DNA from: Myxococcus dinghuensis
Lineage (GTDB): Bacteria; Myxococcota; Myxococcia; Myxococcales; Myxococcaceae
Direction of reading: 5' to 3'
Assembly: GCF_024198235.1 (NCBI RefSeq)
Contig: NZ_JAKCFB010000005.1
Span: 310,001-374,000, forward strand
Length of the DNA: 64,000 nt
The position numbers and the translations under genes are program-made. How positions within the stretch are numbered: the first letter of the stretch is position 1; each line of letters starts with the position of its first letter. Under the pieces are notes generated by a model. It had not been told where the DNA came from. It did no database searches and worked only from the letters and a program-made list of their open reading frames with translations. Shown here one piece after another: positions 52,135 through 61,325 of the stretch.

Positions 52135-53061
52135 TCACGCGGGCGCGGGCGCGTCGCTGTCGAACAGCAGCTCCGCCTCCACCCGCCGAGGCCGCGCCGT
52201 CCCCGCCTCGAACACGCGGCCCACCGGCACCTCCAGCTCCATGAACCGGAACAGCTCCGTCGCCACCGCGTGCGGCGCGTCCCACATCACGAAGTGCCGC
52301 GCGTCCGGCACCTGCACCAGCCGCGCGCCCGGGATGTCCCACGCCAGCCGCTCTCCGTACCGCGCCGGCAGCAGCGCGTCCTCCTCGCCCCACAACAGCA
52401 GCGTCGGCACGCTGACGTGGCCGAGCCTCGGCGCCAGCTCCCGCGTCTGGTTGGTGTCGAGCGCCACCGCGTCGCGCACCAGCGACACCAACCCCACCTC
52501 CGTCGCGTACGGCGCCAGCAACCCCTCCACCACGCCATCCGGCGGCGCCGTCTCGAAGCCCTTCCAGCGCAGCGCCAGCCGCAACAGCCGCCCCACCCGC
52601 TCCGGCGACAGCCGCCGCGTCGCGGACGGCGTCCCCAGCAACGACATCAGGCTCAGCGGCCACGCGTCGTAGCAGATGCTGTCCACCAGGCACAGGCGCC
52701 CCACCCGCCGTGGGAAGCGCACCGCCAGGTGCTGCGCCACGCCGCCGCCCACGTCGTGCCCCACCACCAGCGCGTCGACGAGGCCCAGCCGGTCCATCCA
52801 CGCGTCCAGCGCCTCCGCCTGCCGCCCCACGGAGCGGTCGAAGACGTCCCGCTTGTCCGAGAACCCGTACCCCAACAGGTCCGGCACCAGCACCCGGTTC
52901 GTGGTGGCCAGCCCCGCCGCCAGCCCGCTCCACACGTAGCCCCACGTGGGGATGCCGTGCAGCAACACCACGGGCGGCCCGTCCCCCAGGTCCACGTAGC
53001 TCAAGAACCGGTCCCCCAGCTCCACCACGTCCTGCATGCGCTGCCACGCTCGCCAGTTCAT
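52135..53061 (-). CDS. Alpha/beta hydrolase, haloalkane dehalogenase/epoxide hydrolase-like
   Basis: 308 residues from ATG 53059-53061. The nucleophile elbow reads VVGHDVGGGVAQ with Asp103 in place of Ser, which defines the Asp-nucleophile branch (haloalkane dehalogenases and epoxide hydrolases). HGIPTWGYVW matches the HGNPTSSYLW oxyanion segment of dehalogenases. The Trp that usually follows the nucleophile and binds halide is Val here, so halide binding is uncertain. The catalytic His is likely in VQVPDARHFVMWD. Its start overlaps the stop of the DehI-like gene by four bases (ATGA), so they form an operon. Confidence 0.85.
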   Translation of the reverse strand: MNWRAWQRMQDVVELGDRFLSYVDLGDGPPVVLLHGIPTWGYVWSGLAAGLATTNRVLVPDLLGYGFSDKRDVFDRSVGRQAEALDAWMDRLGLVDALVVGHDVGGGVAQHLAVRFPRRVGRLCLVDSICYDAWPLSLMSLLGTPSATRRLSPERVGRLLRLALRWKGFETAPPDGVVEGLLAPYATEVGLVSLVRDAVALDTNQTRELAPRLGHVSVPTLLLWGEEDALLPARYGERLAWDIPGARLVQVPDARHFVMWDAPHAVATELFRFMELEVPVGRVFEAGTARPRRVEAELLFDSDAPAPA

Positions 53062-53957
53062 CTCAGCTCCTTCGCCGCCACCCAGTCCGGCACCAGCCGG
53101 GCCGCCCCCGGGATGGGTTGCCGCAGGATGTCCGGCACGTCCTGCACCATCAGCGCCAGGTTCACGAGCAACCCCGGCAGCCGCTCCTCCAGCGCGTCCG
53201 TCAACCGCAGCACCGCGTCCGCGTCCTCGCCCAGCGACGTCACCCGCTGCCGGCTCAGCGCCACCTCGAAGGGCAGGTCCCGCGCCTTCTGGCGCATCAC
53301 CGCGCGCAGGCCCTCCGTGGCCCGCGCGTACGCCTCGTCGCGCATCACCGGCCCCAGCCGGCTCCACACCGCCTCCAGGTACTCCGGCCAGCACGCCAGC
53401 GCGCGGTACTCCCCGGGCACGCCCGGATGCCCCACCCGCTTCACGATGTCCGAGTACAGCGCCCGCAGCCGCGCGTCCGGCGGACGCTCCGGGGCCCACT
53501 CCATCGCCGCCATGCGCGGCAGCGCGCCGCGCTCCACCCGCTCCACCGTCCCCGACCGCCCGCCCCGCCCCACCGGCTCGCCGCGCAGCGCCAGCCGCAC
53601 CGCCGCCACCATCAACGCCACCCGCGGCTGCATCGCCTCGTACAGCTCCAGGATGCCGCGCGCGTGGAAGCGCTGACTGGGCCCCAGGTCCGCCGCGTTC
53701 CACGCGCCCAGCACCTCCCAGCCCACCGTCGCCTCCAGCGTCCGGGCCCACAGCCCCTGCGCGGACTCCTCGAAGGCCCGCGTCTCCACGCTCGGCCCCA
53801 GCGCCTCCCACATCGCCACGAAGAAGCGCGGGAAGGCGGCCCACGTCCGCAGGGACACGTCCACCCCCGTCACGCGCATCGTCCGCCGCAGCTCGTGGTA
53901 GACGCGCTCGACCGCGCCCGTCGCCTCGCGCTCGCTCACCTGCCTGACCCTGGCCAT
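53058..53957 (-). CDS. DehI-family (haloacid dehalogenase-like) protein
   Basis: 299 residues from ATG 53955-53957. Two similar helical halves are seen: VSEREATGAVERVYHELRRTMRV, FPRFFVAMWEALGPSVETRAFEESA, and later LYSDIVKRVGHPGVPGEYRALACWPEYLEAVWSRLGPVM. This internal duplication and the sequence style match DehI, whose founding member hydrolyses D- and L-2-haloacids without a covalent intermediate. The catalytic Asp/Asn cannot be assigned by eye. Many DehI homologues in myxobacteria have not been tested. Upstream gene of a two-gene operon with the Asp-nucleophile hydrolase. Confidence 0.78.
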   Translation of the reverse strand: MARVRQVSEREATGAVERVYHELRRTMRVTGVDVSLRTWAAFPRFFVAMWEALGPSVETRAFEESAQGLWARTLEATVGWEVLGAWNAADLGPSQRFHARGILELYEAMQPRVALMVAAVRLALRGEPVGRGGRSGTVERVERGALPRMAAMEWAPERPPDARLRALYSDIVKRVGHPGVPGEYRALACWPEYLEAVWSRLGPVMRDEAYARATEGLRAVMRQKARDLPFEVALSRQRVTSLGEDADAVLRLTDALEERLPGLLVNLALMVQDVPDILRQPIPGAARLVPDWVAAKELR

Positions 53958-54305: not shown

Positions 54306-54653
54306 ATGAACGGGCCCGTCATCGACGACCGCCGCGCCGAGCAGGAGCAGGACAGCCGACCTCCCCACCTCGTCGAGGTCCCCCTGGCCAGCGCCGTGGA
54401 CGGCTACCTGCGCCGGCTCCAGGAGCTGGGCGCCGTGGAGGGCGCGGACGGCGAGGTGGGCCTCCACCCCGCGCTGGCCCCCGTGCTGGAGGCGTTGCAC
54501 CACCTGCTGGCCGGCGGCGAGGTGGCGGTCCACGTCACGCGCCCTGGCGTGCCCGCCATCGTCGAGGAGCTGCGCGGGCGCGTCGACGAGGCCACGCGCG
54601 AGGTCAACCAGCTCCAGTCGCTCGCGTCCTTCACGCTGACCACCACCGTATGA
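54306..54653 (+). CDS. Small protein of unknown function, first gene of a coupled operon
   Basis: 115 residues from ATG 54306, with GGAG ten bases before. A Glu/Asp/Arg-rich N-terminus (about 1-25) precedes a helical middle (VDGYLRRLQELGAVEGADG, ALAPVLEALHHLLAGG), a strand (EVAVHVTRPGVPAIVEE) and a C-terminal helix. No membrane segment, no known motif. Its TGA overlaps the ATG of the next gene (ATGA). Given this coupling, it may be a soluble partner of the kinase-like protein or of the biosynthetic enzymes. Confidence 0.7.
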   Translation: MNGPVIDDRRAEQEQDSRPPHLVEVPLASAVDGYLRRLQELGAVEGADGEVGLHPALAPVLEALHHLLAGGEVAVHVTRPGVPAIVEELRGRVDEATREVNQLQSLASFTLTTTV

Positions 54654-56014
54654 GCCATCCGGGGGGAGGACGCGCGGCCCTGACGGCGTCCTTCCGGCGC
54701 TGGACGCGGGCCCAGGACACCGCCGAGGTGCTCGCCGCCGCGGGCGTGGGCCCCTGGCGCGTGCTCACGCTGCTGGTGGTGTGCCTGCTCGCCGCCGCCG
54801 CGTGGGCGCCGGGCGCGCGCGTCGTGTTCGGCGTGCCCTTCGGCCTGGGCCTGGCGTGCGCGGCCCCCATGCTGACGAGCGGCCTCGCCTTCTCGCTGGT
54901 CCACCGGGGCCGCCGCCACCTGGAGCCATGGGGCTGGGTGTGGATGGTGGCGGGCGTGACGTCCCTGCACTTCTTCCTCGCGGCGCTGATGGCGTTGTCG
55001 CAACTGGAGGGCGCCACCGTCATCGCCTCCCTGCTCCTGTTCACGACGGCGTTCCACGGGCGGCTGCACCGGGTGACGCCGCGCACGCCCTTCCTCGCGG
55101 TGGGCACGGCGGTGGCGCTGCTGGCGGCGCTGCCCCTGCGCGAGAGCGAGGACCACCTGGTCCTCTTCGGCGTCATCGGCCCGGCGGCCCTCACCGCGGA
55201 GCTGTACCTGGGCACCTTCGCCGTGCAGCACGACCGCGCCCGGGCGGAGGCCGCGCGGCTGCGCGCCGCGGTCCAGGCGCAGCTGCTGGACCAGCAGGAG
55301 CAGGACGTGGGCCGGCTGTCGCGGGCGCTCGGTGAAATCCTGGGCTACCAGAACGAGCTGGACAGCGCGCTGATGTCGGCGGGCAGCGCGGCGGACATGC
55401 TCGCCGTCATGGGCATGGGCGCGCGCCGCGTGGTGCCCGGCGGGCAGGACCTGGAGGTGCAGCTCAAGACGCTCCAGGAGAGCCTGCGTCGCATCCGCGA
55501 CCGGGTGACGGAGATCCACGCCAAGGGCCGGCGCCACGTGGGCACGGAGCCGGAGCCGGTGGAGGTGGCGCCGCTCCTGGAGTCCGTGCGCGCCAGCGTG
55601 GGGCTGCGCTACCCGGACGTGGACATCACCGTGCAGGTGGAGCCCGGAGGACCGCCCCTGCGCGCGCGCATGCGCGGCGGCGTCACCACGCTGCGGCGGG
55701 TGATGGAGAACCTGGTGCTCAACGCCTGCGAGGGCGACGGCGCGCGCGGCGCCACGCGCGTGGCGGTGGTGGCCCGCGCCGAGCCGCTCAGCGGCCGGCT
55801 GGAGGTGGTCATCACCGATGACGGCCCGGGCTTCCCGCCCGCGCTGCTCGACGGCGCCGTCCAGGCGCTGGCCTCGTCCAAGTCGGACGGCATGGGCCTG
55901 GGGCTCTACACGAGCGAGTGCCTGCTGCGCGCCAGCGGCGGCGCGCTCCAGCGCGAGAACACGACGGACGGCGGCGCGCTGCTGCGCCTCGTCCTGCCCC
56001 GGGAGTACCCATGA
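54650..56014 (+). CDS. Membrane histidine-kinase-like protein without clear phospho-histidine
   Basis: 454 residues from ATG 54650 (ATGA overlap with the gene before). About six membrane helices occupy residues 36-190, then a coiled coil (195-230), and a C-terminal HATPase_c domain: N box VMENLVLNACEG (351-362), G1 DDGPGF (390-395), G2 GMGLGL (414-419). In the dimerisation helix, where the acceptor His is expected, the sequence is LSRALGEILGYQNELDSALM, with no His. So it binds ATP but may not autophosphorylate in the usual way. Its stop overlaps the start of the isoprenoid-synthase-like gene. No response regulator gene is adjacent. Confidence 0.82.
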   Translation: MSHPGGGRAALTASFRRWTRAQDTAEVLAAAGVGPWRVLTLLVVCLLAAAAWAPGARVVFGVPFGLGLACAAPMLTSGLAFSLVHRGRRHLEPWGWVWMVAGVTSLHFFLAALMALSQLEGATVIASLLLFTTAFHGRLHRVTPRTPFLAVGTAVALLAALPLRESEDHLVLFGVIGPAALTAELYLGTFAVQHDRARAEAARLRAAVQAQLLDQQEQDVGRLSRALGEILGYQNELDSALMSAGSAADMLAVMGMGARRVVPGGQDLEVQLKTLQESLRRIRDRVTEIHAKGRRHVGTEPEPVEVAPLLESVRASVGLRYPDVDITVQVEPGGPPLRARMRGGVTTLRRVMENLVLNACEGDGARGATRVAVVARAEPLSGRLEVVITDDGPGFPPALLDGAVQALASSKSDGMGLGLYTSECLLRASGGALQRENTTDGGALLRLVLPREYP

Positions 56015-56748
56015 GCGGCGGAGCCATGTACCAGGAGGCCCTGCGGGCGCTGCGGCGGCTGGAGCTGCCGGACGTCTCCGAGCGCGACGTGCTCACCGCG
56101 CTGGAGGAGGCGCAGCCCGGGCCGCTGCCGCTGTTCTACGAGGCCGGCGCGGAGGCGGGCCTGGAGCGCGACGTGCTGGTGGCGCGCGGCGTGGGCCTGT
56201 TCTTCAGCTTCTGCGCGGGCAACCTCGCCGACGACCTCATCGACGGCGACTGCACCTACTACGTCTTCCCGCTGCGCGACGGTCCGTGCGTGCAGTTCCT
56301 CCTCCAGAACCTGGCCTTCGCCTCGCTCACCGAGCCGCGCGCCCGCGTGCCCCCGGGCGCGCTGGCGGAAGGGGCGCGCCTCCTCGCGGTGGCGGCCGGT
56401 CCGCAGGCCCAGGAGGTGCGCGTGCGCGAGTGGACGGCGCCGGTGTACCGCCGCGTCGCGGAGGGCATCGCGGGGCTCCAGTGGGCGGCGTACCTGCGCA
56501 TGCTGTGGGCGGACACGCGGCTGGAGGGGCGCGCGGTGGCGGTGGGCCAGGCGCTGGGGGCGGCGGCCCACGTCGCCGAGGACATCCGCACCCACGACCG
56601 GCGCTTCACCTCGCTGCCGCCCGAGGACCGGGACGCGGTGGTGGCCTGGGCGCGCGCGGCCACCGAGGCGCTGCGCGCGTGGGACCTGCGCTGCCTGGAC
56701 GCGGCCCTGCGCCGCATCGAACCGATATTGCCGGAGGTGTCTCCATGA
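56011..56748 (+). CDS. Isoprenoid-synthase-fold protein (class I, DDxxD)
   Basis: 245 residues from ATG 56011 (ATGA overlap). Almost all helical. FFSFCAGNLADDLIDGD carries DDLID (74-78), an exact DDxxD, the first Mg2+-diphosphate motif of class I terpene and prenyl synthases. ALGAAAHVAEDIRTHDRRFTSL resembles the second aspartate motif of polyprenyl synthases (usually DDIxD, here EDIRTHD). The protein is 60-100 residues shorter than usual. The enzyme could condense or cyclise prenyl diphosphates, or be a degenerate relative. Its start and stop both overlap neighbours by four bases; the next gene is a methyltransferase. Confidence 0.65.
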   Translation: MSGGAMYQEALRALRRLELPDVSERDVLTALEEAQPGPLPLFYEAGAEAGLERDVLVARGVGLFFSFCAGNLADDLIDGDCTYYVFPLRDGPCVQFLLQNLAFASLTEPRARVPPGALAEGARLLAVAAGPQAQEVRVREWTAPVYRRVAEGIAGLQWAAYLRMLWADTRLEGRAVAVGQALGAAAHVAEDIRTHDRRFTSLPPEDRDAVVAWARAATEALRAWDLRCLDAALRRIEPILPEVSP

Positions 56749-57605
56749 GGGGGGAGCTGTCGCGGCGCGACGTCCGCCAGGACGACGTCGTCGTCTATTA
56801 CGAGGAGAAGACGGAGCGCATCCTCCACCGCTACGGGCCGGGGCCGCGCGTGCACTTCCACGTCGGCCTGGTGGACGGCATCCCCCCGCCGGGGGCGACG
56901 GAGCCCGTCCTTCGGCGGCGCATCCACGCCTCGCAGGAGGCGCTGCTGGCGGAGGTGGCGCGCGCGGCGGGGCGCTTCCCGGACGGCGGGGACGTGCTCG
57001 ACGTGGGCTGCGGCCTGGGGGGCGGCAGCCTGTACTGGGCCTCCGAGCACGGGGCCCACGTGACGGCGGTGACGAACGTCGCGTCGCACGTGGAGCTGGT
57101 GCGCACCTTCGCCGAAATCGAGGGCGTGGGCGCGCGGGTGAAGGCCCTGCACTGCGACGCGCTCGCGGTGCCCGGCCGCGCGTGCTTCGACGCGGTGGTG
57201 GCGCTGGAGAGCAGCAGCTACCTGCCCCGCGCGGAGTGGTTCCGCCGGGTGCGCGCGCTGCTGCGGCCCGGAGGCGTGGCGCTCGTGGCGGACTGCTTCC
57301 TGGGGCGGCCGGAGCTGGCCGGGCCCTTCGACCGCTACTGGCGCACGCGCATCGGCACGCTGCACGAATACCTGTCCACCGCGCAGGCGGCGGGCCTGGA
57401 GCTGGAGTCGCGCGACGACCTGTCCTCGCGCGCGGTGGGCTTCTGGTCCCTCACGCTGGAGCTGATGGCCCACGAGCGCCACGTCGCCCCCGGTCAGCGG
57501 TGCCTGGTGCGGGGCGAGTCGAGCCGCGAGCACCTGCGCCTCCAGCAGGCCCTCATGGATGGAGGCCTGGAGTACGGCCTGCTCGTGCTGCGCCGCGAGG
57601 CGTGA
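56745..57605 (+). CDS. Class I SAM-dependent methyltransferase
   Basis: 286 residues from ATG 56745 (ATGA overlap). Motif I VLDVGCGLGGGS (84-95) and AVTNVASHVELV follow an N-terminal cap with VVYYEEKTERILHRYGPGPR. The YYE...GPGPRxHxHxG opening and the RIHASQEALLAEVA helix are like those of small-molecule C-methyltransferases of the CFA-synthase-like group, some of which act on prenyl diphosphates. With the DDxxD protein before it, methylation of a terpenoid precursor or product is a reasonable hypothesis but not shown. Last gene of the four-gene coupled unit. Confidence 0.85.
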   Translation: MRGELSRRDVRQDDVVVYYEEKTERILHRYGPGPRVHFHVGLVDGIPPPGATEPVLRRRIHASQEALLAEVARAAGRFPDGGDVLDVGCGLGGGSLYWASEHGAHVTAVTNVASHVELVRTFAEIEGVGARVKALHCDALAVPGRACFDAVVALESSSYLPRAEWFRRVRALLRPGGVALVADCFLGRPELAGPFDRYWRTRIGTLHEYLSTAQAAGLELESRDDLSSRAVGFWSLTLELMAHERHVAPGQRCLVRGESSREHLRLQQALMDGGLEYGLLVLRREA

Positions 57606-57734: not shown

Positions 57735-57965
57735 ATGAGGACCTTCACGCGATGGATGGGGATGGGGCTGGTGGCGGCGGCGCTGATGGTGGCCGGTTGC
57801 AAGGACCGGAGCCGGGAGTCCATGGGTCAGCACAACAACCAGGGCGCCACGGGCGGTTCGGGCTCCAGCAGCGGCTCCTCGGGCTCGCAGGAAGGCACGG
57901 GCGGTAGCGGCTCGATGCAGGGCAGCGACACGATGCAGGGCGGCGACGCGGGCACCGCGCACTGA
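57735..57965 (+). CDS. Small Gly/Ser-rich lipoprotein
   Basis: 76 residues from ATG 57735, preceded by GGAGGAG. Signal peptide with lipobox (LMVAGC, Cys21), then a low-complexity tail of Gly, Ser, Gln, Asn and Met (GATGGSGSSSGSSGSQEG, MQGSDTMQGGD). No domain. Such tails are common in myxobacterial lipoproteins and may be flexible spacers. The gene stands 129 bases after the methyltransferase gene and has its own ribosome-binding site. Confidence 0.75.
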   Translation: MRTFTRWMGMGLVAAALMVAGCKDRSRESMGQHNNQGATGGSGSSSGSSGSQEGTGGSGSMQGSDTMQGGDAGTAH

Positions 57966-58043: not shown

Positions 58044-61000
58044 ATGCGCAAGGCCATCGGGGTGTGCGTCTTCGTCGGAGCGCTCGCGCTCCTGGGGGTC
58101 TGGTTCCTCCGGGACACGGCCTCGCCGCCCGCGCCCGCCGCGCCTGCGCCCGCGCCCGGCGAGCGCGCGACGCGGACCACGCCTCCCGTGCGCGAGACCG
58201 CGCCCGGTGGAGGCCTCTCCATCCAGGGCACCGTGGTGGACGTGCGGGGACGCCCCGTCGCGGGCGTCCGTGTCTCCGCCTCGTGGCCCGATGCGGACGA
58301 GACGCTGTCGGAGCTGCCGTGCCCGCCCGACCTCCTGCCACCCTGGGAGCGCCCGGCGAGCGCGCCGAAGCCGGGCTTCACGTTGCTCACCTGCCTGCCC
58401 CGGACCCAGGACACCGTCCTGGAGATGCTCGCCGCGCGCCAGGGCGAGGCGGTGGTGCACGCGGAGGCGACGTCCACGGAGGATGGGACGTTCCTGCTGG
58501 AGGGCCTGCCCGAAGGGCCCCAGATGCTGTGGGCCCTGGGGCAACACGTCGCGGGCGCGCGCCCGGGCATCCCCGCCGGCAGCCGGGGCGTGGAGGTGGT
58601 GCTGGAGGAGGTCCCCGTCGCCAGAGGCGTGGTCCGGGGCGAGGGCAGCCCACTGGCCGACGCGCGCGTGACGTACGTGACGACGGAGCACACCCGCTTC
58701 TTCGACACGCGCACGGACGCCCAGGGCCGCTTCCAACTGGGCCCCCTGCCCCCGGAGCGCTACTACGCCTTCGTCTCCAGCGAGGGCTGGCTCCCGAGGC
58801 TCGTCTCCGTGTCTCGCGGCGGCCCCGAGCTGGAGGTGGCGCTGCGCCGTCCCCACCGGCTCTCCGGGCAGGTCCTCTCCCAGGGCGCGCCGGTGGCCGG
58901 CGTGGAGGTCGTCGCGAGGCGGGACGAGGACGCGCCCGTGGGCACGGAGTTCCCCGCGCTCCGACGCACGTCCGACGCCCGGGGCCGCTTCGCGTTCGAG
59001 CTGGAGCCGGGGCCGTACCGCCTGAGCGCCGAGCGCGACGGCGCCTACGCGCTCACCCACGTGGCGTTGGGTGACGCACCCGCCGACGACGTGGTGGTGG
59101 AGCTGGGCGGCGGGCTGTTCGTCGAGGGCACGGTGTTCGACGCGCGGCGCGTCCCCATCGCCGGCGCGCGGGTGCAGGCGCGCGACGAGGCGCGGGACTC
59201 GCTCCAGTTGGAGGCGCGCACCACGGCGGATGGGCACTACCGGATGGGCCCCGTGGAGGAAGGCAGCCTCTGGGGCTTCTCGGTCGAGGCGCCCGGCTTC
59301 CTCGACCAGTTGCTCACGCAGGAGCGCAAGCTGGCGCGAGGCATGGGCCCCCAGGACTTCACGCTCCAGCGGGCCGTCTCCGTCGTCGGGCGCGTCGTGG
59401 ACACGCGGGGCCAGCCCCTGGAGGGCATCCACCTGCGCATGGACATGGACGACTTCGAGGACATGGCTGGCCATGAGGCGCCGGAGGACGCCTACTCGAA
59501 GGCGGACGGGTCCTTCGTGCTGGATGCGGCGCGGCCCGGTCGCTACACCCTCGTCGTCGACGACGACCGTTTCATCCACGTGTCCCAGGAGGTCGTCGCG
59601 CCCACGGAGCGGCTCGTGGTCCGGCTCGACATGGGAGCGACCGTGGTGGCCTCCGTGGTCGACGACGGAGGCCTCCCGCTCAGCGGCTTCCGGGTGGAGC
59701 TGTGGCCGTTGTCGAAGAAGGAGGACGAGGTGCAGCACCTGGGCGTCAGCGACCCGCGCGGGCGCGCCACGCGTCAGGGCCTCCCGCCGGGTCGGTACAT
59801 GGCGGTGGCGTCGCGGTCCTCGGACGGCGTGGAGCGTGAGGCGACCCACGAGGTGACGGTCGACCGGAGCGCCTCGGTGGACGTCGAGCTGCGGATGGCG
59901 CCGGAGCTGAGGGTGTCGGGGACCGTCCTGGACCAGGCGGGTCGCCCCGTGACGGACGCCGCGGTCCAGGCCACCCGCGTCCGCGCTCCGAACGAACCCT
60001 GGGGGGTGCGCATCGTGAGGCCCCACCATGCCCGGGGCCCGGCGCCCGGCGTGCGCACGGACGCGGAGGGGCGCTTCACCCTGCGAGGGCTGACACGCGC
60101 CGAGCACCAGCTCGACGTCGTCAAGGAGGGCTACTGGTTCCAGCCGGCCCGCTCCCAGGGCATCCAGGTCGTCCAGGAGCGGGCCCGCCTCCAGCCCACG
60201 GGGGACCCGGCTCCCCTCCTGGTGATGGAGCGCCGCTCCCACGCGCGGGGGCGGGTGGTGCGGCCGGATGGAGCGCCCTCGCGCGAGTTCGACATCAACC
60301 GACAGACGCAGCGGTCCGAGGACGGCGCCTTCGTCTTCCCCATCACCGCGGTGGGGACCTCCATGCCGCTGGTGTTCGAGGACGACGGACTCCCGCCCGT
60401 CGCGCGCATGGTGGAGGCGGACCCGACCGGCGCGGACGTCGACCTGGGCGTGATTCGCCTGGGCGCGGGTCGCGCCCTCACCGGCCAGGTCCTGGATGGA
60501 CGGACGGGCGCGCCGGTGGCGTTGGCCGTCGTCTCCGCGCTCGCGCCGGGCATCGACTTCCCGGACGAGCGCCCCCTGGTGCTGTCCGCCACGATGACGG
60601 ATGCGCGGGGCGCGTTCACGCTCACCGACGTGGACGAGGGCACCTTCCCGCTGCTGGTGGAGCAACCGGACCGCTACCTCCCGGCGCGGGTGACGGTCGA
60701 GCCGGGCGCGACGCAGACGCGGGTGTTGCTCGAGCGGGGAGCGACGCTCCAGGTCACCGCGTTGGACCGCGCGAAGCGCCCCGTCACGGGCACGGTCCGC
60801 GTCACACCGCTCGACGCGAAGAGGGGCCAGCTCCGCTACACGGACATCGAGGAGGGACGCGGCGAGGTGCGCGGGCTGGCGGCGGGCACCTACCGGGTCG
60901 GGTTCATCCCCAAGTCCCGAGCCGACGACCGGGAGGCCCTCACCTTCCTCGACCAGACCCTCCGGCTCACGACCTCGGACGTCCTCCCCGTCGCGTTCCT

Positions 61001-61325
61001 GGAAGCGGAGAGCGGCGTCACGGTGAAGCTGCGCTCACCCGCGGCGGGCACCGTCGTCGTGCTCGTCCCCGGAGACGTCGCCGCGCCCCGCGACGCCGAG
61101 GCGCTGCGACGCACGGTGGACCTGTCGCTCAACGCGGAGTCCTCGCCCCTGGCGGAGGAGGTCGTCTTCGAGAACGTGCCCCCGGGCCACTACACCGTCT
61201 TCGGCTGGAAGGTGGTCTTCTTCGACGACAGGTTCCTGCGCGAGGAGCTGGACGTCCCGGCCACGGGCACGGTGCTCCGCGCCATCGCGCCCACGTGGAG
61301 GACCTTCGACGTCGCGTCGCGCTGA
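58044..61325 (+). CDS. Large exported protein with about ten carboxypeptidase-regulatory-like repeats
   Basis: 1093 residues from ATG 58044. An N-terminal signal anchor (about 5-24) is followed by a Pro/Ala linker and then repeats of an Ig-like fold. Each repeat opens with GxVxDxxGxPVxGxxVxA: GTVVDVRGRPVAGVRVSA, GQVLSQGAPVAGVEVVA, GTVFDARRVPIAGARVQA, GRVVDTRGQPLEGIHL, ASVVDDGGLPLSGFRVEL, GTVLDQAGRPVTDAAVQA, GQVLDGRTGAPVALAVVSA and others. Each has an inner GxFxLxGLPxG strand. These domains (CarboxypepD_reg) are structural and occur in surface proteins. No catalytic domain is present. Likely periplasmic or surface-exposed scaffold. Confidence 0.88.
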   Translation: MRKAIGVCVFVGALALLGVWFLRDTASPPAPAAPAPAPGERATRTTPPVRETAPGGGLSIQGTVVDVRGRPVAGVRVSASWPDADETLSELPCPPDLLPPWERPASAPKPGFTLLTCLPRTQDTVLEMLAARQGEAVVHAEATSTEDGTFLLEGLPEGPQMLWALGQHVAGARPGIPAGSRGVEVVLEEVPVARGVVRGEGSPLADARVTYVTTEHTRFFDTRTDAQGRFQLGPLPPERYYAFVSSEGWLPRLVSVSRGGPELEVALRRPHRLSGQVLSQGAPVAGVEVVARRDEDAPVGTEFPALRRTSDARGRFAFELEPGPYRLSAERDGAYALTHVALGDAPADDVVVELGGGLFVEGTVFDARRVPIAGARVQARDEARDSLQLEARTTADGHYRMGPVEEGSLWGFSVEAPGFLDQLLTQERKLARGMGPQDFTLQRAVSVVGRVVDTRGQPLEGIHLRMDMDDFEDMAGHEAPEDAYSKADGSFVLDAARPGRYTLVVDDDRFIHVSQEVVAPTERLVVRLDMGATVVASVVDDGGLPLSGFRVELWPLSKKEDEVQHLGVSDPRGRATRQGLPPGRYMAVASRSSDGVEREATHEVTVDRSASVDVELRMAPELRVSGTVLDQAGRPVTDAAVQATRVRAPNEPWGVRIVRPHHARGPAPGVRTDAEGRFTLRGLTRAEHQLDVVKEGYWFQPARSQGIQVVQERARLQPTGDPAPLLVMERRSHARGRVVRPDGAPSREFDINRQTQRSEDGAFVFPITAVGTSMPLVFEDDGLPPVARMVEADPTGADVDLGVIRLGAGRALTGQVLDGRTGAPVALAVVSALAPGIDFPDERPLVLSATMTDARGAFTLTDVDEGTFPLLVEQPDRYLPARVTVEPGATQTRVLLERGATLQVTALDRAKRPVTGTVRVTPLDAKRGQLRYTDIEEGRGEVRGLAAGTYRVGFIPKSRADDREALTFLDQTLRLTTSDVLPVAFLEAESGVTVKLRSPAAGTVVVLVPGDVAAPRDAEALRRTVDLSLNAESSPLAEEVVFENVPPGHYTVFGWKVVFFDDRFLREELDVPATGTVLRAIAPTWRTFDVASR

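Follow-up and report, generated by a model that had tools for sequence, protein, structure and literature searches.

What is made by a small gene cassette of Myxococcus dinghuensis, a soil-dwelling predator, and what controls it? The cassette lies in a 64,000-nucleotide stretch of contig NZ_JAKCFB010000005.1 (positions 310,001 to 374,000 of the forward strand), which we call the window; coordinates below count from its first letter. The genome, G000, is 10.4 Mb in size. Four genes of the plus strand, here named A to D, follow one another. Our favoured reading, held with a little over even confidence, is that C and D together produce a terpenoid methylated at C6, and that B is an unusual controller in the membrane. 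The cassette may thus encode a pathway, not described before, to an uncommon type of terpenoid. Computed here were the coupling and conservation of the genes, the family and catalytic residues of D, the predicted fold and motifs of C, the joint fate of C and D, and the replacement of a histidine in B.

Four coupled genes in Myxococcus and related genera

Gene A (54306..54653) encodes 115 amino acids of unknown fold. It is followed by B (54650..56014; 454 amino acids), which encodes a membrane histidine-kinase-like protein, C (56011..56748; 245 amino acids), encoding a small protein with a predicted class I isoprenoid-synthase fold, and D (56745..57605; 286 amino acids), which encodes a putative prenyl-diphosphate C6-methyltransferase. 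Each gene is joined to the next by an exact ATGA overlap, at 54650, 56011 and 56745, and the frames are as the first-pass annotation of this DNA, which called a four-gene operon, had described them. A scan for sigma-70 promoters and terminators found none. Translation of B, C and D presumably starts at the overlap ATGs.

To compare relatives, loci were fetched for all genomes with a match to C or D and the genes were then mapped. Note that G numbers denote genomes, L numbers fetched loci and g numbers genus groups; g1 is the Myxococcus group, which includes the window genome. An overlap was counted, among the fetched loci, when a stop codon is overlapped by the in-frame, open ATG of the next gene. 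Such overlaps join A to B at 39 of 45 loci, B to C at 43 of 45, and C to D in all 37 unfused pairs; two further C/D pairs form one fused frame. In g6, where C is missing, B and D are joined in this way in 16/16 genomes. Since the overlaps recur across the fetched loci, we conclude that the ATGA junctions are not due to chance.

Searched with the single C sequence, 45 of the 96 genomes in the family gave a match, including all 27 of the genus; a C profile matched 48 of the 195 genomes in the phylum. Matches to D occur in 56 of the same 195 (E up to 1e-25), and relatives of A at 33 of 44 loci in one mapped set. The order A-B-C-D is present throughout g1 (27/27), g8 (7/7) and g9 (1/1), and in the one g43 genome, where C and D are fused. 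Note that the A match in G071, a g1 genome, covers the last 30 residues only and misses the E threshold of 1e-5. Other arrangements were also found. The single g18 genome has a fused C-D, then A-B. Six g3 genomes and one of g20 have A-B-C and no D, all sixteen g6 genomes have B-D with neither A nor C detectable, and the two g5 genomes have C-D with neither A nor B. Two g44 genomes are incomplete here: in G160, which has A-B-C, the contig stops about 150 bases past C, and in G159 C sits on a short contig, so that D is not judgeable in either. Hence, the idea that these genes are kept together in relatives held when gene order was mapped across Myxococcus and related genera. Because the genes are kept in all 27 Myxococcus-group genomes searched, their product may matter to the biology of these predatory social bacteria.

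Gene D and the C6 prenyl-diphosphate methyltransferases

A methyltransferase had been claimed for D, and sequence search placed it in class I of these enzymes. The best solved relatives, found with phmmer, are C6-FPP-MT, of the Streptomyces varsoviensis SvaMT family (9tb4, E 6e-57), and BezA, a geranyl diphosphate (GPP) C6-methyltransferase (7fbh, E 7e-54). The third best match has an E of 5e-15. Against 9tb4, 107 of 231 aligned residues are identical (46%). According to the portions of PMC12929941 used here, Glu165 of C6-FPP-MT is the base, Phe243 and Trp244 position the substrate, Tyr37 and Phe45 lie at its head, and His194 is indispensable. By residue mapping, Glu165, Phe243, Trp244, Tyr37 and Phe45 are E155, F233, W234, Y30 and F38 of D, and this catalytic Glu, the Phe-Trp pair and the head-group aromatics are common to D, C6-FPP-MT and BezA. 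Across 56 D sequences, the catalytic Glu is found in 55 (Asp replaces it in the remote G117 protein) and the Phe and Trp in all 56. Judged by sequence and these residues, on which the label rests, D belongs to the C6 prenyl-diphosphate methyltransferase family. Counting against this assignment, His194 and Gln192 of C6-FPP-MT are replaced by Cys184 and Ala182 in D. BezA has Val at the His194 position.

Which prenyl diphosphate would D use? C6-FPP-MT Ile205 and Tyr209 differ from their D counterparts, F195 and W199. In the tail pocket, F195 also corresponds to Trp210 of BezA, and it is Phe in all 37 intact D proteins. The BezA W210A mutant methylates farnesyl diphosphate (FPP), according to the part of a review consulted (PMC10881772). 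With a bulky Phe at the place of BezA Trp210, GPP (C10) rather than FPP (C15) would be the substrate of D. Hence, this one position suggests a shorter substrate, GPP for example, and we offer that as a guess. Five polyprenyl synthetase genes in the window genome could supply the precursor. The assignment of D as a GPP C2-methyltransferase of the 2-methylisoborneol type was ruled out, as members of that family are much weaker matches (E 9e-8 and 4e-4).

Gene C, a predicted isoprenoid-synthase fold outside the named families

The DDxxD motif reported for gene C in the first-pass annotation is present, within NLADDLIDGD. This first Asp-rich motif, D74-D75-L-I-D78 (56230..56244, plus strand), retains all three Asp residues in 46 of 48 C proteins. 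The second acidic motif, E190-D191-I-R-T-H-D196 (56578..56598, plus strand), is similarly maintained, with D191 in 48/48, D196 in 45/48 and E190 in 45/48. Set by eye beside the NSE consensus of bacterial class I terpene cyclases (PF19086), this second motif reads EDIRTHD in the window protein.

We next considered the fold. An AlphaFold2 model of C, built from 5 similar sequences, has a mean predicted local distance difference test score (pLDDT) of 69.4 and a predicted template modelling score of 0.72. All 50 matches listed by Foldseek are isoprenoid synthases (polyprenyl synthases), with probability 1.00. In VIA-align, the best 50 rows are likewise isoprenoid synthases, led by Ord1 (Z 16.1; root-mean-square deviation 4.0 over 200 aligned residues) and MoeN5 (Z 15.5; 3.9 over 211). 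Terpene-cyclase folds are missing among those best 50 rows, which is not evidence against such folds.

The C family profile was also compared, using hhalign, with an alignment of six polyprenyl synthases: five from the window genome and IspA of E. coli. The score was 44.0, at a probability of 78%. Controls reached at most 21.0 for ten column shuffles and the reversed profile, and at most 17.6 for families A, B and D and the geosmin-type cyclases of the window genome. The alignment pairs D74-D75 of C with the DD of the first IspA motif, and E190-D191 with the second. Hence, the isoprenoid-synthase fold that had been raised for the 56011-56748 product is the predicted one, and profile comparison agrees. 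We conclude that C is a predicted isoprenoid-synthase fold that stands outside any named family.

Several observations weigh against this conclusion. C has no Pfam or NCBIfam family and, as a single sequence, no match in the PDB. The C profile gave one chance match there (E 0.62). When 23 members of the family were compared with Pfam, four families appeared, at chance level only, with PF00348 and PF19086 each in 0/23. Furthermore, the model rests on 5 sequences, and two stretches of it, residues 1-37 and 72-92, have a pLDDT below 50; the second of these holds the DDxxD loop. The Foldseek TM-scores (template modelling scores) are moderate (0.47-0.59 by query length), with one listed match at E up to 0.001, and a VIA-align Z of about 14 is attainable by helical folds with no clear relative. 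Finally, hhalign scores against single polyprenyl synthases were 14.1 to 28.3, largely the control range. Note also that, because Pfam and NCBIfam both miss the C family, profile-based genome mining would overlook it.

The same hhalign comparison (probability 78%) bears on the ligand. The GKRLRP segment of IspA, which includes residues that bind isopentenyl diphosphate (IPP), aligns with EAQPGPL in C, where there is no basic residue, and the KT of IspA has no counterpart. Since the acidic motifs align but the IPP site is missing, C should bind an allylic diphosphate and not IPP. An ordinary chain-elongating polyprenyl synthase was ruled out as the identity of C by the missing IPP site, together with the lack of a PF00348 match.

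Could C act not as a terpene synthase but as a prenyltransferase similar to MoeN5, passing the methylated prenyl unit to an acceptor (a lipid, sugar or protein)? The two leading VIA-align matches, Ord1 and MoeN5, are named as prenyltransferases, and C has the acidic motifs yet not the IPP-binding residues. In the sections of PMC7839719 drawn on here, MoeN5 has a structure like that of trans-prenyl synthases and uses GPP with a glycolipid acceptor, which counts in favour of such a role. However, MoeN5 (Z 15.5-14.7) and short-chain synthases (Z 15.0 and 14.9) fall within 1 Z, a tie by the VIA-align rule, and the Pfam and NCBIfam searches with all four products gave no match to an acceptor-making enzyme. 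We think this role unlikely, but it deserves serious weight. C shares its predicted fold, similar size and first DDxxD with MoeN5 and the short-chain polyprenyl synthases. Unlike them, it has no PF00348 match and no GKRxRP or KT, and its second motif is EDxx(S/T)xD rather than DDxxD.

Elsewhere in the window genome is a two-domain terpene cyclase (G000:C59:310381-312123; L110 and L111), which we take to be geosmin synthase.

The joint fate of C and D

In two lineages C and D form single frames, of 523 amino acids in G157 and 522 in G052, and because of these fusions we think that C and D work as a unit. The B proteins of G157 and G052 sit on long tree branches and their placement is unsure. 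Hence, one old fusion and two separate fusions are both possible.

We scored D proteins as intact using four criteria of our own: the head (Y/F30 and F/Y38), the S-adenosylmethionine (SAM) motif (D/E86-G88-G90-G92), the catalytic set (E155 with F/Y233 and W234) and the tail (F195 and W199). The distant D relative in G117 (E 9e-26) was excluded; that genome has no C and the called frame is without the SAM-motif stretch. Wherever D lies beside a C with DDxxD, in 37/37 genomes, all four are intact. In the 16 g6 genomes, which have no C, and the 2 g5 genomes, whose C has no DDxxD, the head and tail fail in 18/18 and the SAM motif in 12/18.

Three points count against a tight partnership. E155, F233 and W234 remain in all 18 of the pocket-degraded D proteins. 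These 18 come from two genera, g5 and g6, and so represent few independent events. In addition, C occurs with no D in 7 genomes (g3 and g20), and so does not always need D. The asymmetry, in which C can stand without D while D degrades without an intact C, fits D acting before C.

A different interpretation is that C and D are enzyme-derived regulatory partners of B, and that the metabolite is no longer made. The first-pass annotation had raised terpene-synthase-like proteins in signalling. In its favour, g6 keeps B and a broken-pocket D, ATGA-joined in every genome as described above, and C stays with A and B, with no D, in g3 and g20. However, in all 37 genomes that have D and a C with DDxxD, the residues checked in the two proteins (DDxxD in the case of C) are intact together. 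Ratios of nonsynonymous to synonymous substitution rates also argue against it. For the closest pair, with G070, these are 0.23 for C and 0.24 for D (0.35 for B, 0.65 for A), and for the second pair, with G064, they are 0.42 and 0.28 (0.47 for B, 0.74 for A). We consider a purely regulatory role improbable.

In both g5 loci (L090 and L091), C is without DDxxD and D without its N-terminal helix and tail pocket; the frames are still open and the ATGA overlap is kept.

Gene B, a histidine-kinase-like protein with a replaced histidine

The description of B as kinase-like holds, with one correction. The C-terminal half is a histidine-kinase ATPase domain (HATPase_c, PF02518, E 8e-14), which was detected in all 16 B proteins scanned. 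Hydropathy alone gives the window protein five hydrophobic segments and each of the 8 B proteins tested four to six, almost all of them ahead of residue 190. However, the window protein has Asn at residue 235, the position that a profile alignment matches to the phospho-acceptor His in kinases of solved structure. Of 61 B proteins, 36 have His at this position, 21 have Gln and 3 have Glu; the window protein is the only one with Asn, making 25 of 61 non-His. At least 4 changes between His and another residue are required on the B tree. In the ATP site, D390, G392 and G418 are found in 61/61, and N354 and N358 in 58/61. That the ATP-site boxes persist although His is replaced suggests a role for ATP binding that does not involve phosphorylating this residue.

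B resembles atypical histidine kinases of the DivL type, which share the kinase fold and ATP-binding boxes and have the acceptor His replaced; the comparison of B with solved kinases matched DivL (4q20). DivL works in a cell-cycle phosphorelay, whereas B is encoded with biosynthetic genes. Repeated replacement of the His beside such genes makes B a test case for kinase-like metabolic control without phosphotransfer.

Alternatively, C and D could be a real pair and B an ordinary two-component sensor kinase that shares the operon by chance, with its response regulator encoded elsewhere and Asn a recent loss. Consistent with this, 36 of 61 B proteins keep His, including that of the nearest relative, G070, and HisKA (PF00512) was detected in 5 of the 16 B proteins scanned. 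Moreover, a gene for a response-regulator-like protein lies just upstream of A at all 7 loci of g3 and g20, and every B there keeps His. Loss of His is seen only where this gene was not found; His also survives without it. Set against an ordinary kinase are the repeated changes of His on the B tree while the ATP-site boxes stay, and the response-regulator-like protein itself, which does not reach the Pfam cut-off in either of the two scanned copies and, by eye, is apparently without a phospho-acceptor Asp. We regard this account of B as a minority possibility, unlikely yet worth keeping in play. In Pfam and NCBIfam, no DNA-binding family is matched by any of the four products.

The response-regulator-like protein, of 121-122 amino acids, is encoded between a peroxidase gene and A in g3 (6/6) and g20 (L088:7225-7593 and L093:4909-5274, for example).

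Gene A is an open frame with no Pfam or NCBIfam family. Its conserved core is LGAVEG...EALHHxLAGGEV and, in the 45 loci with A, it is found only beside B. That A is without an assigned role weighs against our account of the cassette. With a pLDDT of 47, the AlphaFold model of A is of too low quality to be used. A fold taken from a PDB profile search was rejected, since the 5 weak matches were to designed and unrelated proteins (best E 0.05).

A proposed route and its known counterparts

We infer the substrate, product, order of steps, and roles of B and A as follows. With SAM as the donor, D would methylate a prenyl diphosphate at C6; if this is GPP, as the tail pocket suggests, a C11 diphosphate would result. 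C, as a reduced class I isoprenoid synthase, would ionise the methylated diphosphate and complete the homoterpenoid, the candidate reactions being cyclisation, elimination, hydration and transfer to a non-IPP acceptor. C and D would act as a unit. B, with A, would sit in the membrane and set when or where C and D act and, in the window species, such control would exclude normal phosphorylation of the usual His. In a bolder version, which we find rather doubtful, B would be a membrane receptor that binds ATP, works without phosphotransfer and serves as the direct gate of an attached C-D complex. An outside signal would then be converted straight into a terpenoid methylated at C6 (C11 or C16), the product of a small isoprenoid-synthase family not described before.

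The first-pass annotation had suggested a methylated terpenoid signal under its own membrane sensor. The methylated-terpenoid part is strengthened, since D groups with the prenyl-diphosphate C6-methyltransferases. The sensor is atypical, with the His absent. The product may be a signal, and B may be the sensor over it.

As described in the part of PMC12723460 used here, the 2-methylisoborneol, sodorifen and kantenol pathways place a prenyl-diphosphate methyltransferase gene beside a gene of the class I isoprenoid-synthase fold, as C and D are here (the C fold being predicted). The known homoterpene pathways compared, within those same portions, pair the methyltransferase with a recognisable terpene cyclase, whereas here the partner is a small unrecognised family. 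Unlike the cyclases of such pairs, C is about 245 amino acids long, has no terpene-cyclase profile match, is fused to D in two lineages and is accompanied by A and B. The setting also differs from that of C6-FPP-MT and BezA, since the partner of D is no recognised terpene cyclase and the operon has a membrane kinase-like gene. In the open-licence literature we found no published account of the operon, or of C6-methylated terpenes in Myxococcota, although absence is not proven by this.

Neighbouring genes

Peroxidase genes accompany the cassette in some groups. By tblastn over the fetched stretches, a relative of the dye-decolourising (DyP-type) peroxidases occurs in g3 (6/6), g20, g18 and 3 of 27 g1 loci, where it either precedes A or stands between C-D and A. 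In g5 (2/2), a divergent copy precedes C. Copies include L088:6350-7225, L092:4066-4914 and L093:4040-4882. In the three copies tested, PF20628 was above the cut-off in L088 (g3) and L092 (g18) and below it in L090 (g5). The whole window genome has no match to PF20628; hence, an oxidative step is optional at most. Encapsulin cargo includes DyP peroxidases and terpene enzymes. We considered a link to such compartments; no search for shell genes was made.

Downstream of D, a possible accessory gene (57735..57965, plus strand) encodes a 76-residue, Ser/Gly-rich, lipoprotein-like product and is a candidate cassette member. Matches were found in g1 (27/27, window included), g8 (7/7), g9 (1/1), g5 (2/2) and g6 (13/16). 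The tblastn threshold was E below 1e-3; composition correction was switched off, and the query is of low complexity.

On the minus strand, divergent from A, are a DehI-family gene (53058-53957) and an overlapping alpha/beta hydrolase gene (52135-53064). The pair recurs beside A in several g1 loci, most g3 loci and g20. On the plus strand, 58044-61325 encodes a 1093-amino-acid protein that recurs in many g1, g5 and g6 loci, with 58% identity in G070 and about 31-43% elsewhere.

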